From Sporolactobacillus sp. THM19-2 (GTDB lineage Bacteria > Bacillota > Bacilli > Bacillales > Sporolactobacillaceae): DNA of 38,471 nucleotides. Positions 427 through 31,075 of this stretch are shown here, in pieces. The DNA is taken from positions 1 through 38,471 of the forward strand of contig NZ_SEMC01000022.1 in the NCBI RefSeq assembly GCF_004153195.1. The letters run 5' to 3'. The notes beneath the pieces were generated by a model. That model searched no databases. It was not told the origin of the DNA and saw nothing but the letters and a program-made list of their open reading frames with translations. The translations under genes and the position numbers were made by a program. Position 1 is the stretch's first letter, and each line of letters opens with the position of its first letter.

Positions 427-1572
427 ATGAGAGCGGGTGCCATCTTGACCGAAATATCTGCTGAAACTGTTGAAAAGAGCAGAGAATTACTGGAGCACGC
501 CTGTCAGGCAGAGGCCTCAGATATTCATTTTATCCCACGTATGGAAGATACACTTGTTGAACTGCGTATCCACGGTTACCTTTATCAAATGACCCTTTTG
601 CCCGCAGCAGATGCTGAACGAATCATTAATCATTTTAAGTACCTGTCCGGCATGGATATAGGAGAACGCAGGCTGCCGCAAAGTGGGTCAATGAGACTCA
701 TCATTAACAGCGAGGTTGTCTCACTCCGTCTGTCAACGCTCCCCACACCAGAACAGGAAAGCCTGGTCATTCGATTATTACCGCAGCAGAAAGAATTGGC
801 AGTTCGTGACTTATCCGTGTTTCAGGAGGCAACTGAAGGACTTGCTTCCCTTCTTAACTTTAATAGCGGTATGATTCTGATTTCAGGGCCTACAGGTTCA
901 GGAAAGACGACCACATTATATACGATGCTTATGGAACTGCAGAAACGTTATCATGCACGGATCATCACTATTGAAGACCCGATTGAAATAAGAAATCACA
1001 GTTTTGTGCAGATGGAAGTGAACGAAAAAGCACATTTTTCCTATGCGGAGGGATTCAAAGCCATTCTGCGGCATGACCCTGATATCATCATGATCGGTGA
1101 AATAAGAGATGAAAATACAGCAAAAATGGCCGTCCGGGCCAGCCTGACAGGTCATCTTGTCCTTTCTACGGTGCATGCCTTTAATGCTTCCGGCACGATC
1201 AGAAGAATGACAGAACTTGGCGTACCCCAGTACGACCTTAAGGAGACGCTGGTTGGCGTGATTGCTCAGCGACTGGTAAATATTCAGTGCCCGGAGTGCG
1301 GGCCGGTCTGCAGGACAGACTGCAGCAACCGCCATCATCCGAGTCGAACGGGAATTTTTGAGATACTGACTGGAATGGCATTACATGAATATCTGTCCAG
1401 CAGATCAAGAAGCAGCCGGCCCGCGTATAAAACGTTCGATGATTATCTGGAGGAAGGCGTCACAAACGGACTGATAGAGAAAAGAGAGTGGAAGGGGGGT
1501 GGAATAGCAAATGCGGAGAGCCGGACGCTGGAAAAAGAAAGAACAGGCAAAGATGCTGATTCAGCTTGGTGA
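427..1572 (+). CDS. comGA: ComGA, competence pilus assembly ATPase (GspE/PilB family)
   Basis: Traffic ATPase that powers assembly of the competence pseudopilus for DNA uptake at the inner face of the membrane. Visible features: the N-terminal ASDIHF motif near residue 30, the MDIGERR segment near 77, Walker A GPTGSGKTTT near 157, the Asp box around ITIEDPIE, Walker B-type RHDPDIIMIGEIRD near 215, GHLVLSTVHA near 240, and a CPEC...C zinc-type cluster near 286. Its 381 aa is slightly longer than B. subtilis ComGA because the C-terminus runs 62 bases into comGB. The start is uncertain: neither ATG 427 nor TTG 445 has a good Shine-Dalgarno. The ATPase motifs are intact, although the pseudopilin genes it would serve are missing from the locus. 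Confidence 0.9.
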   Translation: MRAGAILTEISAETVEKSRELLEHACQAEASDIHFIPRMEDTLVELRIHGYLYQMTLLPAADAERIINHFKYLSGMDIGERRLPQSGSMRLIINSEVVSLRLSTLPTPEQESLVIRLLPQQKELAVRDLSVFQEATEGLASLLNFNSGMILISGPTGSGKTTTLYTMLMELQKRYHARIITIEDPIEIRNHSFVQMEVNEKAHFSYAEGFKAILRHDPDIIMIGEIRDENTAKMAVRASLTGHLVLSTVHAFNASGTIRRMTELGVPQYDLKETLVGVIAQRLVNIQCPECGPVCRTDCSNRHHPSRTGIFEILTGMALHEYLSSRSRSSRPAYKTFDDYLEEGVTNGLIEKREWKGGGIANAESRTLEKERTGKDADSAW

Positions 1573-2542
1573 ATGTCTCAGGGATGGCTATTCCCTGAGA
1601 AAAGCCCTGAACCTTCTGCAAATTGAATGGACCGGGATCATGAGAAGAAAGACAGATCAGATGATTCTTCAGCTGGAAAAAGGTGTACCGTTCCATGATG
1701 TCCTGCTTTTTGCCGGGTTTCCCCGGGAAATTGCGACGACGGTCTACTTTTCTCAGCGAAGTGGCAGATTGTCCCGTGGTTTGATTGAGAGTGGGACCCT
1801 GGTACTCAGACGTGAGGAATATAAAGAGAAAATGGGCAGGCTGATGCGTTACCCGATTATCCTGATCTGGTGTCTGAGTATGATTCTGCTGATTATCAGC
1901 CGATTCGTTCTCCCCAGTTTTCTGAGGCTCTATCAGTCCTTTTCCATTGAACTTCCGCAGATTATGAAAATGCTGATCCTGTTGTCCGGTCGGTCCGAGA
2001 CCATTTTTGCTGCAGGTTTGCTGAGCGCCCTCATCCTGCTGTGCGCTTATCTGACGTTTAAACGTTTACCGATTGGAAAAAAGATAAATTGCCTGATTCC
2101 TTTTCCCTTCATCGGTTATTTTGTCAGGTCTTATCTGACGCAGCAAATGTGTTTTCAACTGGGCCATTTATTAAGCGCCGGTTTATCTATTCGGGATTCT
2201 GTTGCCAGTATGACTGAAAAAGGGACCACGTCGTTTCTTGAACATGAAGCAAAACGGATGGGCAGATTGCTCGAAGAAGGTATCGAACTGGATAAAGCGT
2301 TAGAAACGGCAGGGTATTATCTTTCTGATTTTTCTTCCGTGGTAAGACACGGTGAACGAAACGGTTTTCTTGATCATGCCCTTCAGCGATACGGTATGAC
2401 CGTTATGAAGAGATCAGACCAGAAAATACAAACCCTGATGTCCTGTATCCAGCCGGTTCTTCTCCTGCTTATCGGTGGATTTATCCTGGGCCTGTTTGCA
2501 TCAGTTCTGATTCCTGTCTTTGAGATCATTAACGGATTATGA
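1511..2542 (+). CDS. comGB: ComGB, polytopic membrane platform protein of the competence pilus (GspF/PilC family)
   Basis: Inner-membrane platform of the type II secretion-like competence pilus, partner of ComGA. The 343 aa protein has the duplicated GspF arrangement: a cytoplasmic helical domain (about 15-110), a membrane segment near 115-135, a second near 160-185, another GspF repeat (about 205-300) with LGHLLSAGLSIRDS and RHGERNGFLDHAL motifs, and a C-terminal membrane segment near 315-340. The start is set by a strong Shine-Dalgarno (AAGGGGGG at about 1492-1499), and the gene overlaps comGA by 62 bases. After its stop no comGC follows: the opposite-strand yqhG gene overlaps its last 6 bases. 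Confidence 0.9.
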   Translation: MRRAGRWKKKEQAKMLIQLGECLRDGYSLRKALNLLQIEWTGIMRRKTDQMILQLEKGVPFHDVLLFAGFPREIATTVYFSQRSGRLSRGLIESGTLVLRREEYKEKMGRLMRYPIILIWCLSMILLIISRFVLPSFLRLYQSFSIELPQIMKMLILLSGRSETIFAAGLLSALILLCAYLTFKRLPIGKKINCLIPFPFIGYFVRSYLTQQMCFQLGHLLSAGLSIRDSVASMTEKGTTSFLEHEAKRMGRLLEEGIELDKALETAGYYLSDFSSVVRHGERNGFLDHALQRYGMTVMKRSDQKIQTLMSCIQPVLLLLIGGFILGLFASVLIPVFEIINGL

Positions 2543-3334
2543 TTTCCCAGGGAGAAAAGATGAAGACTGCAGATAAAACAGCCCCGCATTGATCAGCTGG
2601 ATTTGAATTTTTGGCTGATACTGCTGGCGAAGTGCTTCTTTTTCCTGAAAATAAGGCTCGGGTTTATCCTCTTCAGATTCGTAAAAAGCGTCCAGAAGAC
2701 GCTGATCGACTGCCCATTTTCTTCCGGCTTCTTCTGCCCAGTCTTTTGATTCATCGGCCAGTGTTGATCGGATAAAGGATTCGATTCGCAGCATGCCGCT
2801 TTTGATTTTGATCAGAGGACTGAGTGTATAACTGTAATCAGGTATTTTGGGGGACAGAGGTAGTTCACGGATGGCATCACGAAAACCATCGATTAACGTA
2901 CCGTTGATCAGTTGCAGTCCGGCGGAACAGAGTCGCTCTTTTTTCAGGTCACACTGATAACTGATGCGCATGTTCATGCACAGCCAGGGTTCCAGTGCAG
3001 CAGAAGAGGTGTTCCGAGGACTCTGATATAAGCGAATGAAGGACCCAAGCTGTCTGGCGGCATCAAAAATCTGATGGAGGCGCGGGGCACCGAAGTAAAT
3101 GAACTCTCCATCCTGATCGGAATGGGGATTGGTCCGCAATCGAAGTGTTACGGTTTCGCCTGTTCCTCCTGTCTGTTTGATATAGTGCCAGTAAAATGGC
3201 CGGTTCATCAGAATTTTATCCATTTCTTCCGTTAATTTTACCGAGAGAACATGACCATTGGTTTCAGGAAGCAGGCGGCATCCTGAAACGGTAAAAAAGC
3301 GATTAAGGTACTGATTAATGGCTGCCGGCTGCAT
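2537..3334 (-). CDS. yqhG: YqhG family protein of unknown function
   Basis: A 265 aa soluble protein matching B. subtilis YqhG in length, position and general composition (PxSGCRLLPE near 20, many aromatic and charged residues, no membrane segment or signal peptide). The function is unknown. It begins 20 bases inside the end of the helicase gene, so the two are translationally linked, as in B. subtilis, and probably work together or are at least co-expressed. Its 3' end overlaps the end of comGB convergently by 6 bases, an unusually tight junction where the rest of the comG operon would normally lie. Confidence 0.8.
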   Translation of the reverse strand: MQPAAINQYLNRFFTVSGCRLLPETNGHVLSVKLTEEMDKILMNRPFYWHYIKQTGGTGETVTLRLRTNPHSDQDGEFIYFGAPRLHQIFDAARQLGSFIRLYQSPRNTSSAALEPWLCMNMRISYQCDLKKERLCSAGLQLINGTLIDGFRDAIRELPLSPKIPDYSYTLSPLIKIKSGMLRIESFIRSTLADESKDWAEEAGRKWAVDQRLLDAFYESEEDKPEPYFQEKEALRQQYQPKIQIQLINAGLFYLQSSSFLPGKS

Positions 3335-4985
3335 TTCGCACCTCCGAGAGTGGTTGGCTTTCAGAATTGATCACACTGCTTAAATTATCAAGTTTTATGC
3401 GGATTTCGCCATCTGAATCAGATTCTTCAAAGATCGTCTGAACCTGTTTATCAATGTCCTTCAGATCTATCCGGGTAAGAATAGCATCCAATCGTCCAAC
3501 GACCTGTTCAAACAGATGAATTTTATTATATAAAAGATTCAGAATATGGCTCTCTACGGTGCCGTGCACTGCAAAATTGTAAATGTGAACATCTTTTTCC
3601 TGACCGAGACGATGAATACGTCCGATTCGCTGCTCAATCCTCATAGGATTCCATGGCAGATCATAATTGATCAGGTGGCTCGCGAACTGCAGATTGATTC
3701 CTTCGCCGCCGGCCTCTGTCGCTATTAATACCTGTATTCTGCTTTTAAACAGTTCGCGCATCCAGTCTTTCTTACCACGCCGAAAACCTCCGCTGAATGG
3801 AACGGAAGTGATCCCGTGTTGTTTAAAAAACCATTGCAAATATAACTGTGTGGCCCTGTATTCTGTAAATATGATCACCTTATCGTTAATCTCACGAATG
3901 AGCTCGAGTGCCTTTTCCGCCTTGGCGTTCCGGGTGATCGCATTCAGTCTTCTGAAAATGGAATGCCAGAGATGTTCGTGGTGGAGGTGATCGGAGGCAT
4001 GGTATATTTTGTTAAGTGTCTTGAATGCTGCTTCACGACTGCTGCAGGCTTCCCTTTGCAGGGTGACGAGTGAAAAGCCCTGGATGATGCCGGCATGCCT
4101 TAAATCCGTCAGAGATTGATAAAAGGCTGCCTCTTCCCTTGAAAATGTGATGTCGAGTGAACAGACGATTCGTTTGGGCCACCGCAGTCCCGTATCTTCT
4201 CTTCGATTGCGTACCATCACCTGACTGACCAGTTTATTCAGCTTTTTTTCATTCTGCAGGGATCCGCGATCTGACTTGAAGACTCGTGAAAAAACATCGG
4301 CACTGCCCAGATAACCAGGCTTGAGAAGTGAAACAAGATAAAAGATTTCACTTAATCGGTTCTGTATCGGCGTAGCTGTGAGCAGCAGACAAAACCGCTT
4401 TTTTAGCAACTGAACGAACTGATAGTTTTTGGTTTTGTGATTTTTAAGTTTATGGGCTTCATCGATAATGACAAAGTCATAGTCCTGCTTCAGCACCAGA
4501 CTTCGATGGGGGTCCCGTTTCGCTGTATCTATTGAGGAGACAATGACATCGCATTTGTCCCACATGTAAGATTTGCGCTGAGGTACAGCCGGGATCGCAA
4601 ATTTGCGGTTCAATTCGGAAACCCATTGTGAAACGAGGGAGGCAGGAACGAGTATCAGGACTTTTCTGGCAAGCCCGCGGATCATATATTCTTTAATGAT
4701 CAGACCGGCTTCAATAGTCTTTCCGAGTCCGACTTCATCTGCCAGAATCGCTTTACCGTGCATTTTTTCAATCACATGCTGTGCGGTCTCAACCTGGTGC
4801 GGATGGAGCTTCAGATCCGGTAACTGAGAAGGAGCAATAAGCCCGTGAAAAGAGGGGACGATCCTGGCCTGTTCCGCCTGGAAAGCAAGATCAAACATCA
4901 CCGGATTGGCCCATGGCCCCCCGGCTTCAATTTTTTTTATCAATTCATCCTGCCACGAACGATCAAATTCAATAATCGGTTCCAT
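3315..4985 (-). CDS. yqhH: SNF2/RapA-like superfamily 2 helicase (YqhH)
   Basis: A 556 aa Swi2/Snf2-type DNA translocase, the size of B. subtilis YqhH. The motifs appear in order: motif I DEVGLGKTIEAGLI near residue 80, Ia VLVPASLVSQW near 115, DEAH box (IIDEAHKLKN) near 175, motif III LLTATPIQNR near 202, motif V GGEGINLQFA near 425, and motif VI with RIEQRIGRIHRLGQ near 447. It would use ATP to move along DNA or displace bound proteins; the target is unknown. The start follows an AAAGGTG Shine-Dalgarno and is divergent from the gcv promoter region. It lacks the extra N-terminal domains of full-length RapA, so I do not call it RapA. Confidence 0.88.
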   Translation of the reverse strand: MEPIIEFDRSWQDELIKKIEAGGPWANPVMFDLAFQAEQARIVPSFHGLIAPSQLPDLKLHPHQVETAQHVIEKMHGKAILADEVGLGKTIEAGLIIKEYMIRGLARKVLILVPASLVSQWVSELNRKFAIPAVPQRKSYMWDKCDVIVSSIDTAKRDPHRSLVLKQDYDFVIIDEAHKLKNHKTKNYQFVQLLKKRFCLLLTATPIQNRLSEIFYLVSLLKPGYLGSADVFSRVFKSDRGSLQNEKKLNKLVSQVMVRNRREDTGLRWPKRIVCSLDITFSREEAAFYQSLTDLRHAGIIQGFSLVTLQREACSSREAAFKTLNKIYHASDHLHHEHLWHSIFRRLNAITRNAKAEKALELIREINDKVIIFTEYRATQLYLQWFFKQHGITSVPFSGGFRRGKKDWMRELFKSRIQVLIATEAGGEGINLQFASHLINYDLPWNPMRIEQRIGRIHRLGQEKDVHIYNFAVHGTVESHILNLLYNKIHLFEQVVGRLDAILTRIDLKDIDKQVQTIFEESDSDGEIRIKLDNLSSVINSESQPLSEVRNAAGSH

Positions 4986-5027
4986 ATTATGTCACCTTTT
5001 TTGTTAAAATTTTGTGAATGAAAAGCA

Positions 5028-5057
5028 TTGATTTTATTCACCTGTAAATGGTAGGAT
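5028..5057 (+). promoter_or_regulatory. candidate sigma-A promoter for the gcv operon
   Basis: TTGATT (5028-5033), 18-base spacer, TAGGAT (5052-5057), about 65-70 bases upstream of the first riboswitch aptamer. The match is moderate; the position is right for the gcv leader. Confidence 0.45.
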
Positions 5058-5126
5058 ATGTATTGTTAGTATGACCGATTCAGACAGGATTAAACGACAA
5101 CAATTGAATGTTTTGCGGATGACGGC

Positions 5127-5304
5127 ATGGGGAGAGCGCGCAGCCGGGCGACGCCGAAGGAGCAAACAGTCAGTGAATCTCTCAGGCAAAAAGACTCATG
5201 ACGGACGCACCTCTGGAGAGTGCTACAGACAGGAAAGCCACCAAAGGGGATACCGTGTGTGACGATTGTTGTTCATACGATAAACTTTCAGGTTTCAGGA
5301 CAGG
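5127..5304 (+). promoter_or_regulatory. tandem glycine riboswitch (two aptamers) upstream of gcvT
   Basis: Aptamer 1 (about 5127-5205) carries the hallmarks GGGGAGAG, GACGCCGAAGGAGCAA and TCTCTCAGGCAAAAAGAC. Aptamer 2 (about 5212-5304) carries CTGGAGAG, CACCAAAGGGG and TTTCAGGTTTCAGGACAG. The two are joined by a short linker, the cooperative tandem form typical of gcv operons. Glycine binding would hold the 3' strand of aptamer 2 in the aptamer and prevent the terminator hairpin just downstream, turning the glycine cleavage genes on when glycine is plentiful. Confidence 0.92.
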
Positions 5305-5337
5305 GGAACACGTAATGTGTTTTCTCTGTCCTTTTTT
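5298..5337 (+). terminator. riboswitch expression-platform terminator
   Basis: A long near-perfect hairpin from GGACAG (5298-5303) to CTGTCC (5326-5331) closes on a short loop near 5311-5315 and is followed by TTTTTT (5332-5337). The 5' arm is also the last conserved element of aptamer 2, so terminator and ligand-bound aptamer are mutually exclusive. This supports an ON switch. Confidence 0.85.
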
Positions 5338-5419
5338 CTGCACTATGTGCAACCGGGGCTTAGCGGGCATCAGGTTTTCTTTATACACTGGCAAAAATGA
5401 AGGGAGACGGGTATCAGCC

Positions 5420-6514
5420 TTGAAAACGACACCGATTTATGAATATTATAAAAGTTCAGATGCTAAATTGATTGAGTTTGGCGGATATTTATTACCGGTC
5501 AGTCTGTCGGGAATTAAGCTGGAACATCAGGCTGTCAGAACCAGGGCCGGACTGTTTGACGTATCGCATATGGGTGAATTTCATTTACAGGGACCCGAAG
5601 CTGAAGCGTTTCTTCAGAAAATGATTACGAATAACGTAGCAAAGACGCAACCTGGCGATGCGCAATATACGGCAATGTGCTATGAGAATGGAGGAACGGT
5701 CGATGATCTGATGGTCTACCGTCTGGCTGGTGATGCCTTCATGCTCGTTGTAAATGCAGCAAATATTGATAAAGATTTTGACTGGCTGGACAGTCACTTA
5801 ACCGAAGAGGCGGTATTGACCAACCAGTCGGCAAATATCGCACTCCTTGCCCTTCAGGGTCCCGCCGCAGAACACATTCTTCAGAAGATTGCGGATATTC
5901 CTCTTGCGCAGATCAGTCGTTTTACATTCCGGGAGCATGTCAGTCTTGAAGGGATTCAGGCACTTGTTTCCCGTACAGGATATACGGGTGAAGATGGTTT
6001 TGAACTCTATTGCCCGTGGGAGAAGGCCCGGGCCCTGTGGGACAGATTACTGGATGCAGGAAAGGATGAAGGATTAATCCCGTGCGGACTCGGTGCGAGA
6101 GATACATTGCGGTTTGAATCCTGTCTGCCGCTTTACGGGCAGGAACTCAGCCCTGATGTTTCTCCACTTGAAGCCGGGATCGGTTTCGCTGTTAAAGCGA
6201 AAAAAAATGTTCCCTTTCTTGGTCAGAAGGCTTTGTCTGAACAAAGAGAGAACGGACTTAAGCGAAAAATTGTCGGTATCGAAATGGTAGACCGGGCGAT
6301 TCCGAGAACACACTATGAGGTCTATTCGGATAACCGGAAAATTGGTCAAATCACGACCGGAACACAGTCACCGACTCTGGGAAAGAATCTCGGGCTTGCG
6401 CTGATTGACATCATGTATACCCGGCCCGGGACCACTCTCGAAGTCGATATCCGTGGGAAAAGGAAAAAAGCGGTAATTGTTCATACGCCCTTCTATAATA
6501 AAAAAAATAATTGA
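5420..6514 (+). CDS. gcvT: aminomethyltransferase, T protein of the glycine cleavage system
   Basis: Transfers the methylene carbon from the aminomethyl-lipoyl H protein to tetrahydrofolate, releasing ammonia. The reading frame is open upstream through the riboswitch, but homology begins at LKTTPIYE, so I place the start at TTG 5420, preceded by GGGAG at 5402-5406. That gives 364 aa, the usual GcvT length. Family motifs include the FDVSHMGE segment, the TVDDLMVY segment with the folate-binding acidic residue, ALQGPAAE, RTGYTGEDGFE, and the C-terminal GTQSPTL region. It is the first gene of gcvT-gcvPA-gcvPB. The lipoyl carrier gene gcvH is not in the window. Confidence 0.94.
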   Translation: MKTTPIYEYYKSSDAKLIEFGGYLLPVSLSGIKLEHQAVRTRAGLFDVSHMGEFHLQGPEAEAFLQKMITNNVAKTQPGDAQYTAMCYENGGTVDDLMVYRLAGDAFMLVVNAANIDKDFDWLDSHLTEEAVLTNQSANIALLALQGPAAEHILQKIADIPLAQISRFTFREHVSLEGIQALVSRTGYTGEDGFELYCPWEKARALWDRLLDAGKDEGLIPCGLGARDTLRFESCLPLYGQELSPDVSPLEAGIGFAVKAKKNVPFLGQKALSEQRENGLKRKIVGIEMVDRAIPRTHYEVYSDNRKIGQITTGTQSPTLGKNLGLALIDIMYTRPGTTLEVDIRGKRKKAVIVHTPFYNKKNN

Positions 6515-25672: not shown

Positions 25673-25916
25673 AGAAGAGCATAAGGAGCATGCACCCACC
25701 TTTGAAGAAGCCATGGAACATCTTGAACAAATTGTGACAAAGCTTGAAGAGAATGATGTACCACTGGAAAAAGCCATTGATTTGTTTCAGGAAGGAATGG
25801 CTCTCTCAAAGATATGCCACGACAAGCTTGAATCTGTAAGCAAAAAAATGGATCAGATGATCAGCAGCGATGGTGAGTCGAAACCCTTTACGTTACGAGA
25901 GGACGATCAGCAATGA
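25665..25916 (+). CDS. xseB: exodeoxyribonuclease VII small subunit
   Basis: An 83 aa two-helix subunit that binds the XseA coiled coil. The signature [20 protein letters not shown] and [16 protein letters not shown] is clear. A GAGGAGG-like site precedes ATG 25665 inside xseA, and the gene overlaps ispA by 4 bases (ATGA). Confidence 0.95.
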
Positions 25917-26797
25917 GTCGAACTCTGAAGGAATATATGGCTGATATTAAATCATGGTTTGATCCCTTTCTTACCAGGGAACTTAGTCGGACTCAAATTA
26001 CAGAGAGATTGAAAGAGTCAATGATTTATTCTTTGACGGCCGGAGGGAAGAGGTTTCGGCCAATGCTGCTCTTTGCCACACTGGAATCTCTTGGAAAGAA
26101 AAAGGAAACGGGTCTGTATCCTGCCATTGCCCTTGAAATGATACATACTTATTCATTGATCCATGATGATCTGCCTGCCATGGACAATGATGAGTTAAGG
26201 CGCGGGTTTGCGACCAATCATGTGAGATTTGGTGAAGCAACAGCTATATTGGCCGGGGACGGACTTCTGACCTTCGCCTTTCAGATCATTGCATCTGATC
26301 CGGAACTGTCAGATGCTGAGAAAAGCAGGATGACCTGGCTTCTTGCCCGTGCCGCCGGTCCGGAAGGAATGGTTGGCGGACAGGAAGATGATCTTGAAGC
26401 TGAGGACCATGTACTTTCCATTGATGAGCTGATGTCTGTTCATCGAAGAAAAACAGGACGGCTTATCAGATTTCCTGTCGAAGCAGCAGCAGTGATTTCG
26501 GGAGTGTCGCCGGATCAGTCTCATGCACTGATCGGGTACGCCGATCACCTGGGCATTGCCTTTCAAATTGGTGATGATCTGCTGGACATCACGGGTAATG
26601 AGAAAATGCTTGGTAAAAAGGTGGGCGGTGATCTCGCAAAACATAAGAACACGTATGTCAGTCTGCTGTCTCTGGACGGGGCAAGGAAGCAGCTATCCAC
26701 CCATATTGAAAAAGCAAAAGGATATCTTAATGAAGCGGGTATGGCTGACGGGCGCCTGAAGGAAATCGCTGAGTACCTGCTGCACAGGACGAGTTGA
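25913..26797 (+). CDS. ispA: farnesyl diphosphate synthase (polyprenyl synthetase)
   Basis: A 294 aa short-chain prenyl transferase that condenses IPP with DMAPP and GPP to farnesyl diphosphate. First aspartate-rich motif in [17 protein letters not shown] (about 83-99), second in [13 protein letters not shown] (about 218-230), and the GGKRFRPML substrate-binding segment near 43. It lies directly upstream of OLE RNA, with dxs downstream, so isoprenoid synthesis genes flank the RNA. Confidence 0.95.
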
Positions 26798-26870: not shown

Positions 26871-26899
26871 TTGAAATATGGTTTTAATCATGATATAAT
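26871..26899 (+). promoter_or_regulatory. sigma-A promoter for OLE RNA
   Basis: TTGAAA (26871-26876), 17-base spacer, perfect TATAAT (26894-26899), giving a predicted start near 26906, just where OLE homology begins. It is one of the best sigma-A promoters in the window and lies after the ispA stop, so the RNA can be made independently of the upstream operon. Confidence 0.8.
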
Positions 26900-26905
26900 T
26901 AATCG

Positions 26906-27527
26906 TGTAAGTTAAATGGTGGTGCAGTATTCTAGTCACTCCACTTTATTTGAAGGCGGGGCTAAAAATCCGCCAAAGGGCACATCGATGAAGTTCCTGG
27001 TTTCAGCTTAAGGCGCCCAGCCTTGGGTTGATTCTGGGAGTAAAGGATGTAGGGCGATCCGCAACGGCATGTGGGCGATGACCCTGCGTCCGTGGAGACA
27101 CGTACGTTGTTTGCTTTTAGGCAATGACTAAGTGGAAAACCTGTTTCGTTAGTACTTTTTTCAAGAAAAGCGAACAGCGTAGCCTGCCTTGAGTGGAAAA
27201 GAGGGGATAGAAGCACGTAACCCGGGTTAGCTTGGCCGGCAGCCCTGGCGTGTGCTTGCTTGAAATCAATTCTGCAAAAGAGGCTAGAATAAGGTTTAAG
27301 AGTGCCTGAGGAAATCTCCTAGACTGTCTGCGCTATGCAGCATCAGTGAAGGATTATAGTGCGGTCTGAGTGGCGTTCCAGTTCGATGACCGGCAACGGC
27401 AACGGTCAGTTTTTAAAAGGAAACTGCCTGTATGGCAACATCAGGTAATCTGACGGGAAAACCTACTGGACCTAAGCCGCAGCATTTACTTCACTGGTGA
27501 CCTCCACGTTACATAAACTTTCCAGAC
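26906..27527 (+). ncRNA. ole: OLE RNA (Ornate Large Extremophilic RNA)
   Basis: About 620 nt without a plausible ORF between ispA and oapA-dxs, exactly the place and size known for OLE RNA (about 600 nt). I recognise conserved OLE blocks: GGTGCAGTATTCTAGTCACT near 26920, GGCGGGGCTAAAAATCCGCC near 26956, GGGCACATCGATGAAGTTCC near 26978, AGGGCGATCCGCAACGGCAT near 27050, and GGTGACCTCCACGTTACATA near 27496. In Alkalihalobacillus halodurans this RNA forms a membrane-bound ribonucleoprotein with OapA (also OapB and OapC), and its loss gives sensitivity to ethanol, cold and magnesium. Its biochemical action is still unresolved. Both ends are estimates: the 5' end from the promoter, the 3' end from the last conserved block. 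Confidence 0.93.
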
Positions 27528-27596
27528 ATGAATACCATAAATATCAGGGATGTGACGATTGGTCCGGGCAATCAGTAAGTAATAAATCCGGATCGA

Positions 27597-28229
27597 ATGT
27601 GTATGAAGAATGATTTCAGAAAATCACTGAAATGGGCAATACCTTTAGCCGTTATCACGATAGTGCTGGCGGCTATTTTTTCTATCATTTCAACAGCAGT
27701 GCTGCATGATTCAAATGTGATTACCGGCACTATTGTTGTACTTGTGATTATTTTTATCGCCCTTTTTTTCGATATCATCGGCGTAGCAGCTACCGCTTCA
27801 AATGAAGCGCCTTTTCATTCTATGGCTTCAAACGGTATGAAAGGGGCAAGGTATGCAGTATGGCTGACAAAAAATGCAGATCGTGTCAATACATTTTGTA
27901 CGGATGTCATAGGCGATATCAGCTCAATCATCAGTGGTACGGCGGCTTCAGTCGTGGTTGTGCAGATTCTGGTCCTGCTATCCAGAGTCGACAGCGGTAT
28001 CGTTGAGTATGTTCTCTCCGTTGTGATAACATGTATGGTGGCGGCGCTTACAGTGTTTGTCAAAGCGCTGGGCAAATCATTTGCTATAAAAAATGCTACA
28101 AATATCATTTACCATACCGGATTTTTTATCTATTTCATCGAGCACCATCTTCATATTCCGCTCCTTCGTTTCCTTGATAAAAGAAACAGTAGTAAATCAA
28201 GGATAAAAAAGAGGAAAAAGGACGTGTGA
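27597..28229 (+). CDS. oapA: OapA, OLE-associated membrane protein
   Basis: A 210 aa membrane protein directly downstream of OLE RNA. Membrane segments at about 12-34, 42-66, 112-133 and 138-158. The conserved acidic DxxxD motif of OapA is seen as DVIGD (residues 103-107), preceded by NADRVNTFC and followed by ISSIISG. The C-terminus is very basic ([11 protein letters not shown]), suited to RNA contact. ATG 27597 or ATG 27603 could be the start; neither has a strong Shine-Dalgarno, unusual in this window. It ends 4 bases before dxs. OapA recruits OLE RNA to the membrane. Confidence 0.92.
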
Positions 28230-28233
28230 TCTA

Positions 28234-30156
28234 TTGGATGTCACTTCAATTAAAAATCCCGAATTCCTGAAAAACATGTCGACTTCACAGATGAATCATC
28301 TTGCTGCGGATATCCGTACTTTTCTTATTGAAAAGCTGTCAAAAACGGGTGGCCATCTCGCCCCCAACCTGGGTGTCGTCGAGCTGACACTGGCCCTTCA
28401 CAAAGAATTTAACAGCCCGACAGATAAGCTGATCTGGGATGTCGGGCATCAGACCTATGTTCATAAGATCCTGACTGGCCGTGGAGGACGCTTTGATACG
28501 TTACGTCAATATAAAGGACTTTGCGGTTTTCCAAAACGAAGTGAGAGTGAACATGATGTCTGGGAGACAGGACATAGTTCCACGTCTCTGTCTGCAGCAC
28601 TCGGCATGGCTGTGGCGAGAGATCTGAAAAAAGAAGACTATGAAGTCGTGGCGATTATCGGGGATGGAGCGCTTACCGGCGGTATGGCTCTTGAAGCTTT
28701 AAATAATATCGGACAAATGAAAAAAGATATGATCATTGTGCTTAATGATAATGAAATGTCGATTGCTCCAAATGTCGGAGCCCTTCATAATATGCTCGAC
28801 AGAATTCGATCGGCTGAGAAATACAATCGTGCTAAAGAAGACATTGAATTTCTTATGAAGAAAATACCTGCCTTTGGCGGGAAAATTGCTTCCGTCGCAG
28901 AGCGGGTAAAAGACCGCCTGAAGTATCTTCTGATGTCCGGCGTTTTTTTCGAGGAACTTGGTATTTCATATCTTGGACCTGTTGACGGGCACAATATCAG
29001 TGCGCTGATTGATAATCTGAAACTTGCCCGGAAGCGCAGAGGACCGGTCCTCATCCATGTTCTGACGCAGAAGGGTAAGGGCTACAAACCTGCCGAGATG
29101 GATTCAGTCGGTACCTGGCATGGCACGGGTCCTTATAAAATCGAGTCCGGCGCCTTTATAAAACCGGTTACTTCGGCCCCTTCCTATAGTAAAGTAGTCA
29201 GCGGGACCCTTCAGGAGCTGGCACGCAAGGATAAAAGAATCACAGTGATTACACCGGCTATGGTTGTTGGATCAAAGCTTGAGGGGTTCGCCAAAGAATT
29301 CCCCGACCGGCTGTTTGATGTAGGAATAGCCGAACAGCATGCCGCGACATTTGCTGCTGGTCTGGCTACTCAGAAAATGAAGCCGGTTCTGTTTATTTAC
29401 TCAACTTTTCTGCAGCGGGCCTATGATCAGGTTCTTCACGATATTTGCCGGCAGAATCTCAATGTCATGATCGCTGTAGATCGTGCAGGGCTTGTCGGAG
29501 CAGATGGGGAAACCCATCAGGGCGTCTTTGATATTGCATTTCTCCGCTCTCTTCCGAATCTTAAAATCATGATGGGTAAGGATGAGAATGAATTAAGGAA
29601 TATGGTTTATACAGCGATAAAGTATAATGATGGACCGATTGCCGTTCGTTTCCCGAGAGGAAACGGGCTCGGGGTTGCTTTTGATCAACATCCCTCTGAA
29701 ATTCCGATAGGCAAGTGGGAAGTTCTAAGAGAGGGATCGGACGCCTACATTCTTTCATTTGGCCCCATGTTACAGGTTGCGATTGAAGCCGCTCATCAGT
29801 TGCAGTCGAAAGGGCTTCAGATTGGTGTCATTAATGCACGCTTTATCAAGCCACTTGATAAAGACATGCTTATCAGGCTCGCCAAAGAAAAAAAGCCTGT
29901 ACTGACGCTGGAAGAAGGAGTTCTTGCAGGTGGCTTTGGTTCAAGCATTCTTGAATTTTATGCTGATCAGAAAGAATACGGCCTGATGATTGACCGGATG
30001 GGCATTCCGGATACCTTTATTGAACACGGCAGTGTCAGAGAACTTCTGAAGGGACTGGGCCTGACGAGTGAGCATGTCTGCGCAAGGATCAGCAGTATGA
30101 TCGCAGGGCAGGAAAATCAGGAAGCAGCGAAACGACAGAGGGTCTCCTCGTCATGA
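28234..30156 (+). CDS. dxs: 1-deoxy-D-xylulose-5-phosphate synthase
   Basis: A 640 aa thiamine diphosphate enzyme that condenses pyruvate and glyceraldehyde 3-phosphate, the first step of the MEP isoprenoid pathway. Visible: [20 protein letters not shown] near 40, [16 protein letters not shown], the ThDP/Mg motif [16 protein letters not shown] near 147, catalytic Glu367 in [15 protein letters not shown], and the transketolase C-domain. TTG start 28234, aligned to the family N-terminus, with AAAGGA some 10 bases upstream. It overlaps yqxC by 4 bases (ATGA). Confidence 0.95.
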
Positions 30157-30971
30157 AAGATAAAGAAAGGGTAGACGTCTTACTGGTACGGGACGGTTTT
30201 TTTGAATCACGTGAAAGAGCGCAGAGGGCTGTCATGGCCGGAATGGTTTATATTGGGGAACAGCGTGTTGATAAACCCGGTAGTAAAATCGACAGTCATA
30301 CTCAGTTTCTTGTCAAGGGGAACCCGATCCCCTATGTCGGACGCGGCGGGCTGAAACTGGAAAAGGCACTCCGCGTGTTTCCGGTTCACGTCTCAGGTAA
30401 ACTGATGATTGATATTGGTGCTTCGACCGGCGGCTTTACAGACTGTGCCCTGCAAAATGGTGCTGAAAGGGTTTATGCCCTTGATGTCGGCTATAATCAG
30501 CTTGCATGGAAATTGCGAAATGACCGCCGGGTGATTGTCATGGAAAAGACAAATTTCAGATATTGTACACCGGCCGATTTTCAGGAAGGTGTTCCGGAGT
30601 TTGCGACCATTGATGTCTCTTTTATTTCACTGAAAAAAATCTTACCTCCGCTTAAAACCATCCTCCTCCCTGGAGGAGATGTGATTGCGTTAATCAAACC
30701 GCAATTTGAGGCGGGCAGGGATGAGGTTGGAAAGAAAGGGATCGTCCGTGATCCACAGATACACCAATCGGTTCTTAAGAAAATTATCCTTTTTGCTGAA
30801 GAAGCGGGATTTATTCTGAAAGGACTGGATTATTCCCCCATTACCGGAGGAGACGGAAATATTGAATTTCTCACGTGGCTCAAATCGTCTGCTAAAAGAA
30901 GTATTAAAGACCCTTCTTTATTAGTGAATGACGTTGTTTCACGGGCCCACTGCCGACTGGACAGAAAATAA
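30153..30971 (+). CDS. yqxC: YqxC/TlyA family rRNA methyltransferase
   Basis: A 272 aa protein with an N-terminal S4 RNA-binding domain (about 5-62; [20 protein letters not shown]) and an FtsJ-like Rossmann methyltransferase domain with the SAM-binding [18 protein letters not shown] near 87 and the [17 protein letters not shown] segment. TlyA proteins 2'-O-methylate rRNA in mycobacteria; the substrate here is inferred. It is the last gene before a clear terminator. In B. subtilis ahrC follows; here it does not. Confidence 0.92.
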
Positions 30972-30979
30972 ATACCGAA

Positions 30980-31005
30980 GAGAGCGTCAGTGGACGCTCT
31001 CTTTT
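30980..31005 (+). terminator. terminator after yqxC
   Basis: A perfect 9-bp stem GAGAGCGTC/GACGCTCTC with loop AGTG (30980-31001) followed by TTTT. It lies 9 bases after the yqxC stop and separates OLE-oapA-dxs-yqxC from recN. Confidence 0.8.
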
Positions 31006-31075
31006 CATATATGGAAAAAAGGTTCAGAAAAACTAAGACTCAGGCGACTTGCCAGTCGGCCAGCTTTTCTTTATA

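Follow-up and report, generated by a model that had tools for sequence, protein, structure and literature searches.

The OLE RNA and adjacent oapA gene of a Sporolactobacillus genome: a family-wide comparison of the RNA, its expected partners and a candidate leader hairpin

Among structured bacterial RNAs whose activity is unexplained, OLE ranks with the largest. The first-pass annotation of the DNA considered here had proposed an RNA of this known class, about 620 nt long and beginning at 26906, between ispA and dxs, with a gene resembling oapA next to it. This DNA, referred to below as the window, is a stretch of 38,471 nucleotides from Sporolactobacillus sp. THM19-2; our search for literature joining OLE RNA with Sporolactobacillus found none. 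In Halalkalibacterium halodurans, OLE is reported to have roles in stress and Mg2+ responses, to assemble into an RNP and to be located at the membrane (PMC12265935, PMC9723947), and PMC12265935 discusses a transmembrane RNA model. The locus raises two questions, namely whether it holds a genuine RNA-protein pair and whether the particle expected from it follows that of H. halodurans in its partners and in the supply of its membrane subunit.

The whole window was compared with the Rfam covariance models using cmscan, as the first-pass annotation had recommended for OLE. A full-length OLE RNA was found at 26903-27520 on the + strand (618 nt; RF01071, 477.6 bits, E 2.8e-137, with a curated cut-off of 50 bits). 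The match covers model positions 1-616, which are all of the positions, and is not cut off, so the class, place and approximate length that had been proposed were borne out. The annotation had named a translated ORF across the RNA as the contrary case; within the window no ORF of at least 60 aa overlaps OLE on the + strand, and two, of 84 and 70 aa, overlap it on the − strand. The source genome of 3.0 Mb contains a single OLE copy. One other RNA family exceeds its cut-off in the window, the glycine riboswitch, represented by one aptamer above the cut-off (5119-5207, 63.7 bits); the ORF that follows is presumably gcvT, as read from its translation.

The order of genes is ispA, OLE, oapA, dxs, tlyA. 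Matches to family libraries support ispA (farnesyl diphosphate synthase, 25913-26797, +; NF045485, 379.4 bits), dxs (28234-30156, +; TIGR00204, 925.4 bits), tlyA, nusB, xseB and an Asp23 (yqhY-like) gene. From translations we take the upstream neighbors to be accB, accC, folD and xseA, with spoIIIA genes further upstream, and the downstream ones to be recN, spoIVB and spo0A. Toward the other end of the window, at 427-3334, a convergent ORF comes directly after putative comGA and comGB, names that we assign from translation only, and leaves no room there for comGC-comGG.

The Rfam structure maps onto the window OLE with 157 pairs, 141 of them standard. Covariation was assessed in a MAFFT alignment of 25 distinct OLE RNAs from the family (26, less that of the same-species genome G018). 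Over the 157 pairs, 88.8% of the cells are paired. Changes on both sides of a pair occur in 395 cells, distributed over 80 pairs; sliding the partner strand by 1-3 columns reduces the count to 75-133 cells, and none of 500 shuffles was as high on any of five measures. Among helices of at least two pairs, numbers 5, 7 and 11 have the lowest pairing (75, 70 and 63% of cells). We take these to be P7, P8 and P9.3; they are the diverged parts of the family OLE. Both stems between P6 and P9, again as named in this analysis, are present in the window RNA, which is thus of the full-length form and not of variant 1 or 2, where P7/P8 are short or lacking. A complementarity of 9-10 bases seen by eye between two variable stems in Sporolactobacillus was considered as an alternative helix and rejected, since about 10 such matches are expected by chance (estimated by hand, with G-U allowed, for an RNA the size of OLE).

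Two elements with reported functions appear to be retained. The putative P6 stem, assigned by order and sequence rather than by alignment with the H. halodurans RNA, lies at 27049-27087 (+) and has three G-C pairs in a row that do not vary among the 25 family RNAs; P6 is reported as the bS21 site, and two such G-C pairs as needed for bS21 binding in H. halodurans (PMC12054373). In the loop taken as L9.3, the palindrome GGCC (27234-27237, +) is likewise invariant in all 25. According to Kretsch et al. (PMC12286853), the GGCC of L9.3 forms the self-kissing contact of the OLE dimer; this putative dimer contact would be kept in every family member compared.

The gene downstream was expected to be OapA-like, with a DVIGD motif and a basic tail, and the ORF at 27597-28229 has both. 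Although this ORF of 210 aa can be read from the in-frame ATG at 27597, relatives favor the ATG at 27603, so we place oapA at 27603-28229 (+). DVIGD occupies residues 103-107 of the 210-aa ORF, is invariant in eight aligned OapA proteins and conforms to DxxxD, an OapA trait that CNNM domains lack; the C-terminus is basic. The protein reaches 28.4 bits with Pfam CNNM, a borderline value equal to the cut-off, and no CBS, CorC_HlyC or other Pfam domain was found in it. Comparison of OapA with MpfA-type CNNM profiles by hhalign gave a probability of only 51% (E 1.5e-4), and the CNNM link consequently rests mainly on Pfam and on PMC11332333. A protein search of genome contigs confirmed one relative, Sporolactobacillus kofuensis, whose OapA is 76% identical to that of the window in the best segment. 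An AlphaFold2 model made from these two proteins was too poor to interpret (pLDDT 44.5, pTM 0.33), be it for the four-helix form proposed in the first-pass annotation or for the dimer and four transmembrane helices expected of an OapA. Two matches to the PDB were discarded as too weak to use: an eight-OapA profile hit only four nitrogenase chains (E 0.46-0.47), and a single OapA touched the CorB-type structure 7m1u (E 0.22).

It had also been suggested that the genome be searched for oapB and oapC, and homologues of both were found. That of OapB matches the solved structure of OLE-associated protein B (PDB 7k9b, E 2.9e-27); in a KOW search of the source genome it was the weakest (12.2 bits) of four places with E up to 1, and its gene lies between ORFs that we read as map and infA. 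All 25 family genomes sampled have OapB. In G018 (C1:632094-632416, −) the match is in two pieces, possibly through a frameshift or a sequencing error, and in the source genome it is in one. OapC-type (L7Ae-type) genes number two in each of the 25 genomes. In the source genome the OapC candidate, which presumably lies between rpoC and rpsL (both read from translations), matches YbxF-type structures (E 9.2e-25 and 1.3e-24) and is thus closest to YbxF, not YlxQ. The bS21 gene, too, was found in all 25 genomes. Taken together, the full-length covariance-model match, the family covariation, the downstream OapA with its DxxxD motif and the partner genes elsewhere in the genome confirm the original observation, and we have little doubt that, as judged from these sequences, the locus is a genuine, complete and adjacent OLE-OapA pair.

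How unusual is such a pair? OLE occurs once per genome in all 26 Sporolactobacillaceae genomes. A sample of the order, which includes 14 of these 26 (G002 among them) and was searched for OLE with stricter filters that lose weak matches, contains OLE in 199 of 348 genomes and OapA-class proteins in 200. The sole discordance is a genome (G228) that is 62% complete and in which the contig ends 30 bases from the OapA-class gene. The pair is ordinary for the family, and what this locus adds is the comparison that the family permits. In its full length, its conserved blocks, its isoprenoid and sporulation neighborhood and the downstream position of oapA, it is of the H. halodurans type.

The comparison bears first on the transcription of OLE. 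A promoter-like site, TTGAAA-17-TATAAT, whose −10 is preceded by TG, ends three bases before the 5′ end of OLE (26871-26899, +) and agrees at 11 of 12 positions with the consensus used for the scan. The scanned kilobase of the window contains two such sites where 1.4 are expected, and the window alone therefore provides no evidence. The family does. When 60 bases upstream and 10 bases of OLE were scanned, a score of at least 10 was reached in 25 of 26 loci, compared with 6.9% of 5200 control windows, and a score of at least 11 in 18 of 26, compared with 1.75%. A distance of 25-30 bases between the end of the best site and the conserved ATTCTAGTC is shared by 22 loci. The best site lies elsewhere in four (L006, L009, L020 and L023), L009 alone falling below 10, and in L024 the best site is a shifted reading of the one at the shared distance. 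Inspection by eye of these five loci reveals a TG-TATAAT-like −10 at the usual place. That most family members carry such a site immediately upstream of OLE is a new detail, predicted here from sequence. For H. halodurans, PMC12265935 describes a single polycistronic transcript of the cluster; a promoter of OLE's own would be either an addition to such transcription or a difference from that organism.

On the other side of the RNA, the leader of oapA in Sporolactobacillus differs from those in other genera of the family. In the window an extended Shine-Dalgarno-like motif, AGGGATGTGA (27546-27555, +), which reads AAGGATGTGA in most of the genus, is separated from the start of oapA by a predicted hairpin (27559-27596, +; z −2.2 in the window). 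Comparison of this leader with Rfam gave no match with E up to 1. The oapA start could be located for this comparison in 23 of the 26 family loci. At 45-64 nt upstream of this start, GGATG(T/C)GA is present in 14 of the 15 Sporolactobacillus genomes, the exception being G015, and in none of eight other family loci. The exact AAGGATGTGA is found in 12 of 129 loci, once in each and always shortly before oapA; two of the 12 (L015 and L066) represent the same organism. With one mismatch allowed, the motif occurs six times in the whole window against 3.7 expected. Because the motif is not rarer than chance across the window, the evidence for it is its conserved position. Inside the genus-specific AAGGAUGUGA-like motif (within 27546-27602) there is also a minimal start-stop, AUG UGA.

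Because the stems are too dissimilar in sequence and length for alignment, the hairpin was assessed by folding z-scores. Among 13 leader spacers (G018, from the same species, and G015, which has no motif, were left out) the mean z is −1.82, compared with −0.29 for 104 control windows, and eight of the 13 reach −1.5 or lower, as do 12.5% of the controls. Three have no hairpin beyond chance (G012, +0.52; G022, −0.08; G011, −0.54). The unpaired bases outside the stem total 4-16, which is near ordinary spacing, and the motif agrees at nine of ten positions with AAGGAGGUGA, the complement of the anti-Shine-Dalgarno sequence. These observations suggest a model, to which we give about an even chance, in which Sporolactobacillus oapA would be translated from the AAGGAUGUGA-like ribosome site, with the hairpin bringing that site near the AUG. 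T4 genes 38 and 25 share such an extended distance between ribosome site and AUG, which a stem-loop would shorten (PMC3014915); in Sporolactobacillus the structure is predicted only.

A different function for the hairpin may be imagined, in which it hides a ribosome site or serves RNA processing rather than bridging a distant site to the AUG. Processing has a precedent of sorts, for the 3′ end of OLE is reportedly processed in H. halodurans (PMC11332333). In favor of concealment, a GGA some 10 nt upstream of the AUG is often found in the 3′ arm and could be a weak ribosome site within the stem. Against this, the upstream motif is the better ribosome site, with its agreement to AAGGAGGUGA, and the few unpaired bases that remain beside the stem are what bridging would leave. 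We hold this alternative only tentatively, at roughly one chance in three, and continue with the bridging hairpin as the preferred reading.

The membrane subunit itself varies within the family. A DVIGD ORF directly follows OLE in 23 of the 26 genomes. One of the remaining three, G006, has a frameshifted linked oapA, and was set aside as evidence because dxs is broken there as well, in a genome of 75% completeness. In the other two, G005 and G002, remnants of the start of oapA can be recognized in the gap of about 130 bases that precedes dxs. Local comparison with the oapA region of G004 and with that of G003 scores 120 and 104 in G005 (shuffle maxima 39.5 and 42.5); in G002 the scores are 56.5 and 54.5 (shuffle maxima 39 and 43.5). 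Both genomes carry an unlinked paralog with DVIGD, which we call OapA2 and which is their only intact OapA match; their OLE RNAs are intact (492.3 bits in G002 and 500.8 in G005). OapA2 was found at L069:1370-1957 in G002, L070:1327-1905 in G004, L071:2567-3133 (−) in G005 and L072:1488-2060 (−) in G001, with G004 and G001 having the linked oapA in addition. Together the four, a divergent protein group from three related genera of the family, make up a single clade (100/100) with a long branch. A second paralog group that retains DVxGD, OapA3 (also our name), comprises five proteins (L119-L123) from genomes in other families of the order; in four of these (G174, G181, G187 and G274, the fifth being G100) coordinates place it away from OLE. 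In the OLE RNA literature searched, "paralog" refers to MpfA, to YlxQ or, in a reference title, to a MutS paralogue, and an OapA paralog was not found there.

The simplest reading is that OapA2 replaces OapA in G002 and G005. It follows from the remnants of the linked gene, from OapA2 being the sole match, from an unchanged OLE and from the co-occurrence of OLE with OapA, and on these sequence comparisons we judge it about as probable as its converse. The clade's long branch, together with an N-terminal segment and a tail that differ from those of OapA, would also fit a protein with another job, in which case OLE would work without OapA in these two genomes. Several observations weigh against this. 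OapA2 retains DVIGD and the surrounding core, and its profile matches OapA with E 1.4e-40. In the order sample, where G002 is the sole OapA2 genome, an OapA-class protein lacks an OLE match only in the 62% complete genome mentioned above. Finally, the OLE RNAs of G002 and G005 have no changes in the columns that are invariant across the other 24, though this holds equally for ten of the other 23. A separate function for OapA2 thus seems rather unlikely to us, and replacement remains the preferred reading. A lineage-specific change of OLE upon loss of linked oapA was also looked for and dismissed, as no base is privately common to G002 and G005.

Two further departures from H. halodurans concern ArgR and MpfA. 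The first-pass annotation had spoken of an unusual set of neighboring gene losses. This was examined for argR only, and for argR it held: no argR ORF was found between tlyA and recN (window 30971-31049), and no Arg_repressor match above cut-off, for either domain, in any of 25 family genomes, the source genome included. Bacillus subtilis was positive in the same controls, and G001 gave a sub-threshold match to the ArgR N-domain (25.9 bits in a 315-aa frame). In H. halodurans ArgR interacts with OLE and argR is often near ole (PMC10898510; the in vitro part is unpublished). The Sporolactobacillus particle would differ from that of H. halodurans if ArgR is a regular component of the latter.

MpfA is reported, in PMC11332333, to be anticorrelated with OLE, such that OLE genomes typically have at most one, and mpfA is absent in H. 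halodurans. By contrast, at least one strong CNNM protein (matches above 150 bits, counted by hand) occurs in 26 of 26 family genomes, and two or three in 11 of them. The source genome has two MpfA-type proteins close together (L068:1051-2439 and 4578-6152, both −), each with CNNM, two CBS and CorC_HlyC domains; this domain make-up was established for these two proteins, the others being counted by CNNM. Because the family sample contains no OLE-negative genome, MpfA-type proteins beside OLE are an exception to the reported tendency and not a test of it.

The source genome departs from H. halodurans in having no argR match, in possessing MpfA-type proteins and in the divergence of its variable stems. 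A priori, these same features might describe a decaying relic: with MpfA-type transporters in every family genome and more than one in 11, with no argR match in 25, and with the putative P7, P8 and P9.3 paired in only 63-75% of cells, the RNP might be unneeded and slowly disappearing. Such decay is hard to reconcile with the retention of OLE by all 26 genomes, none of which has lost it, with double-sided pair changes far above the controls, or with the upkeep of a promoter-like site and of the partner genes, and we regard it as very improbable.

How, then, might the locus work? What the genomes show directly is the RNA with its conserved structure, OapA beside it, genes for the partners and a promoter-like footprint. 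A full-length and presumably abundant OLE would be transcribed, probably from its own sigma-A-type promoter, with oapA next in the same direction. By homology with H. halodurans, the RNA would form a dimer, OapA, expected to bind OLE two to one, would hold it at the membrane, and OapB, OapC and bS21 would be bound. Expression, assembly of the RNP, membrane location and a stress role in Sporolactobacillus are what we infer by this analogy, and the particle may help the cell to cope with Mg2+, cold, alcohol and poor carbon sources. A more far-reaching interpretation, which we offer as a conjecture with the odds somewhat against it, is that the family's OLE particle has been rewired around its membrane subunit, through a hairpin-bridged oapA and a takeover by OapA2 in two genomes, while the invariant positions of OLE stayed unchanged.

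If true, the hairpin-bridged ribosome site could tie the supply of OapA to the OLE transcript. The family as a whole, with OLE everywhere, no detectable ArgR, MpfA-type proteins present and the linked OapA gone in some members, provides natural tests of which partners OLE needs.
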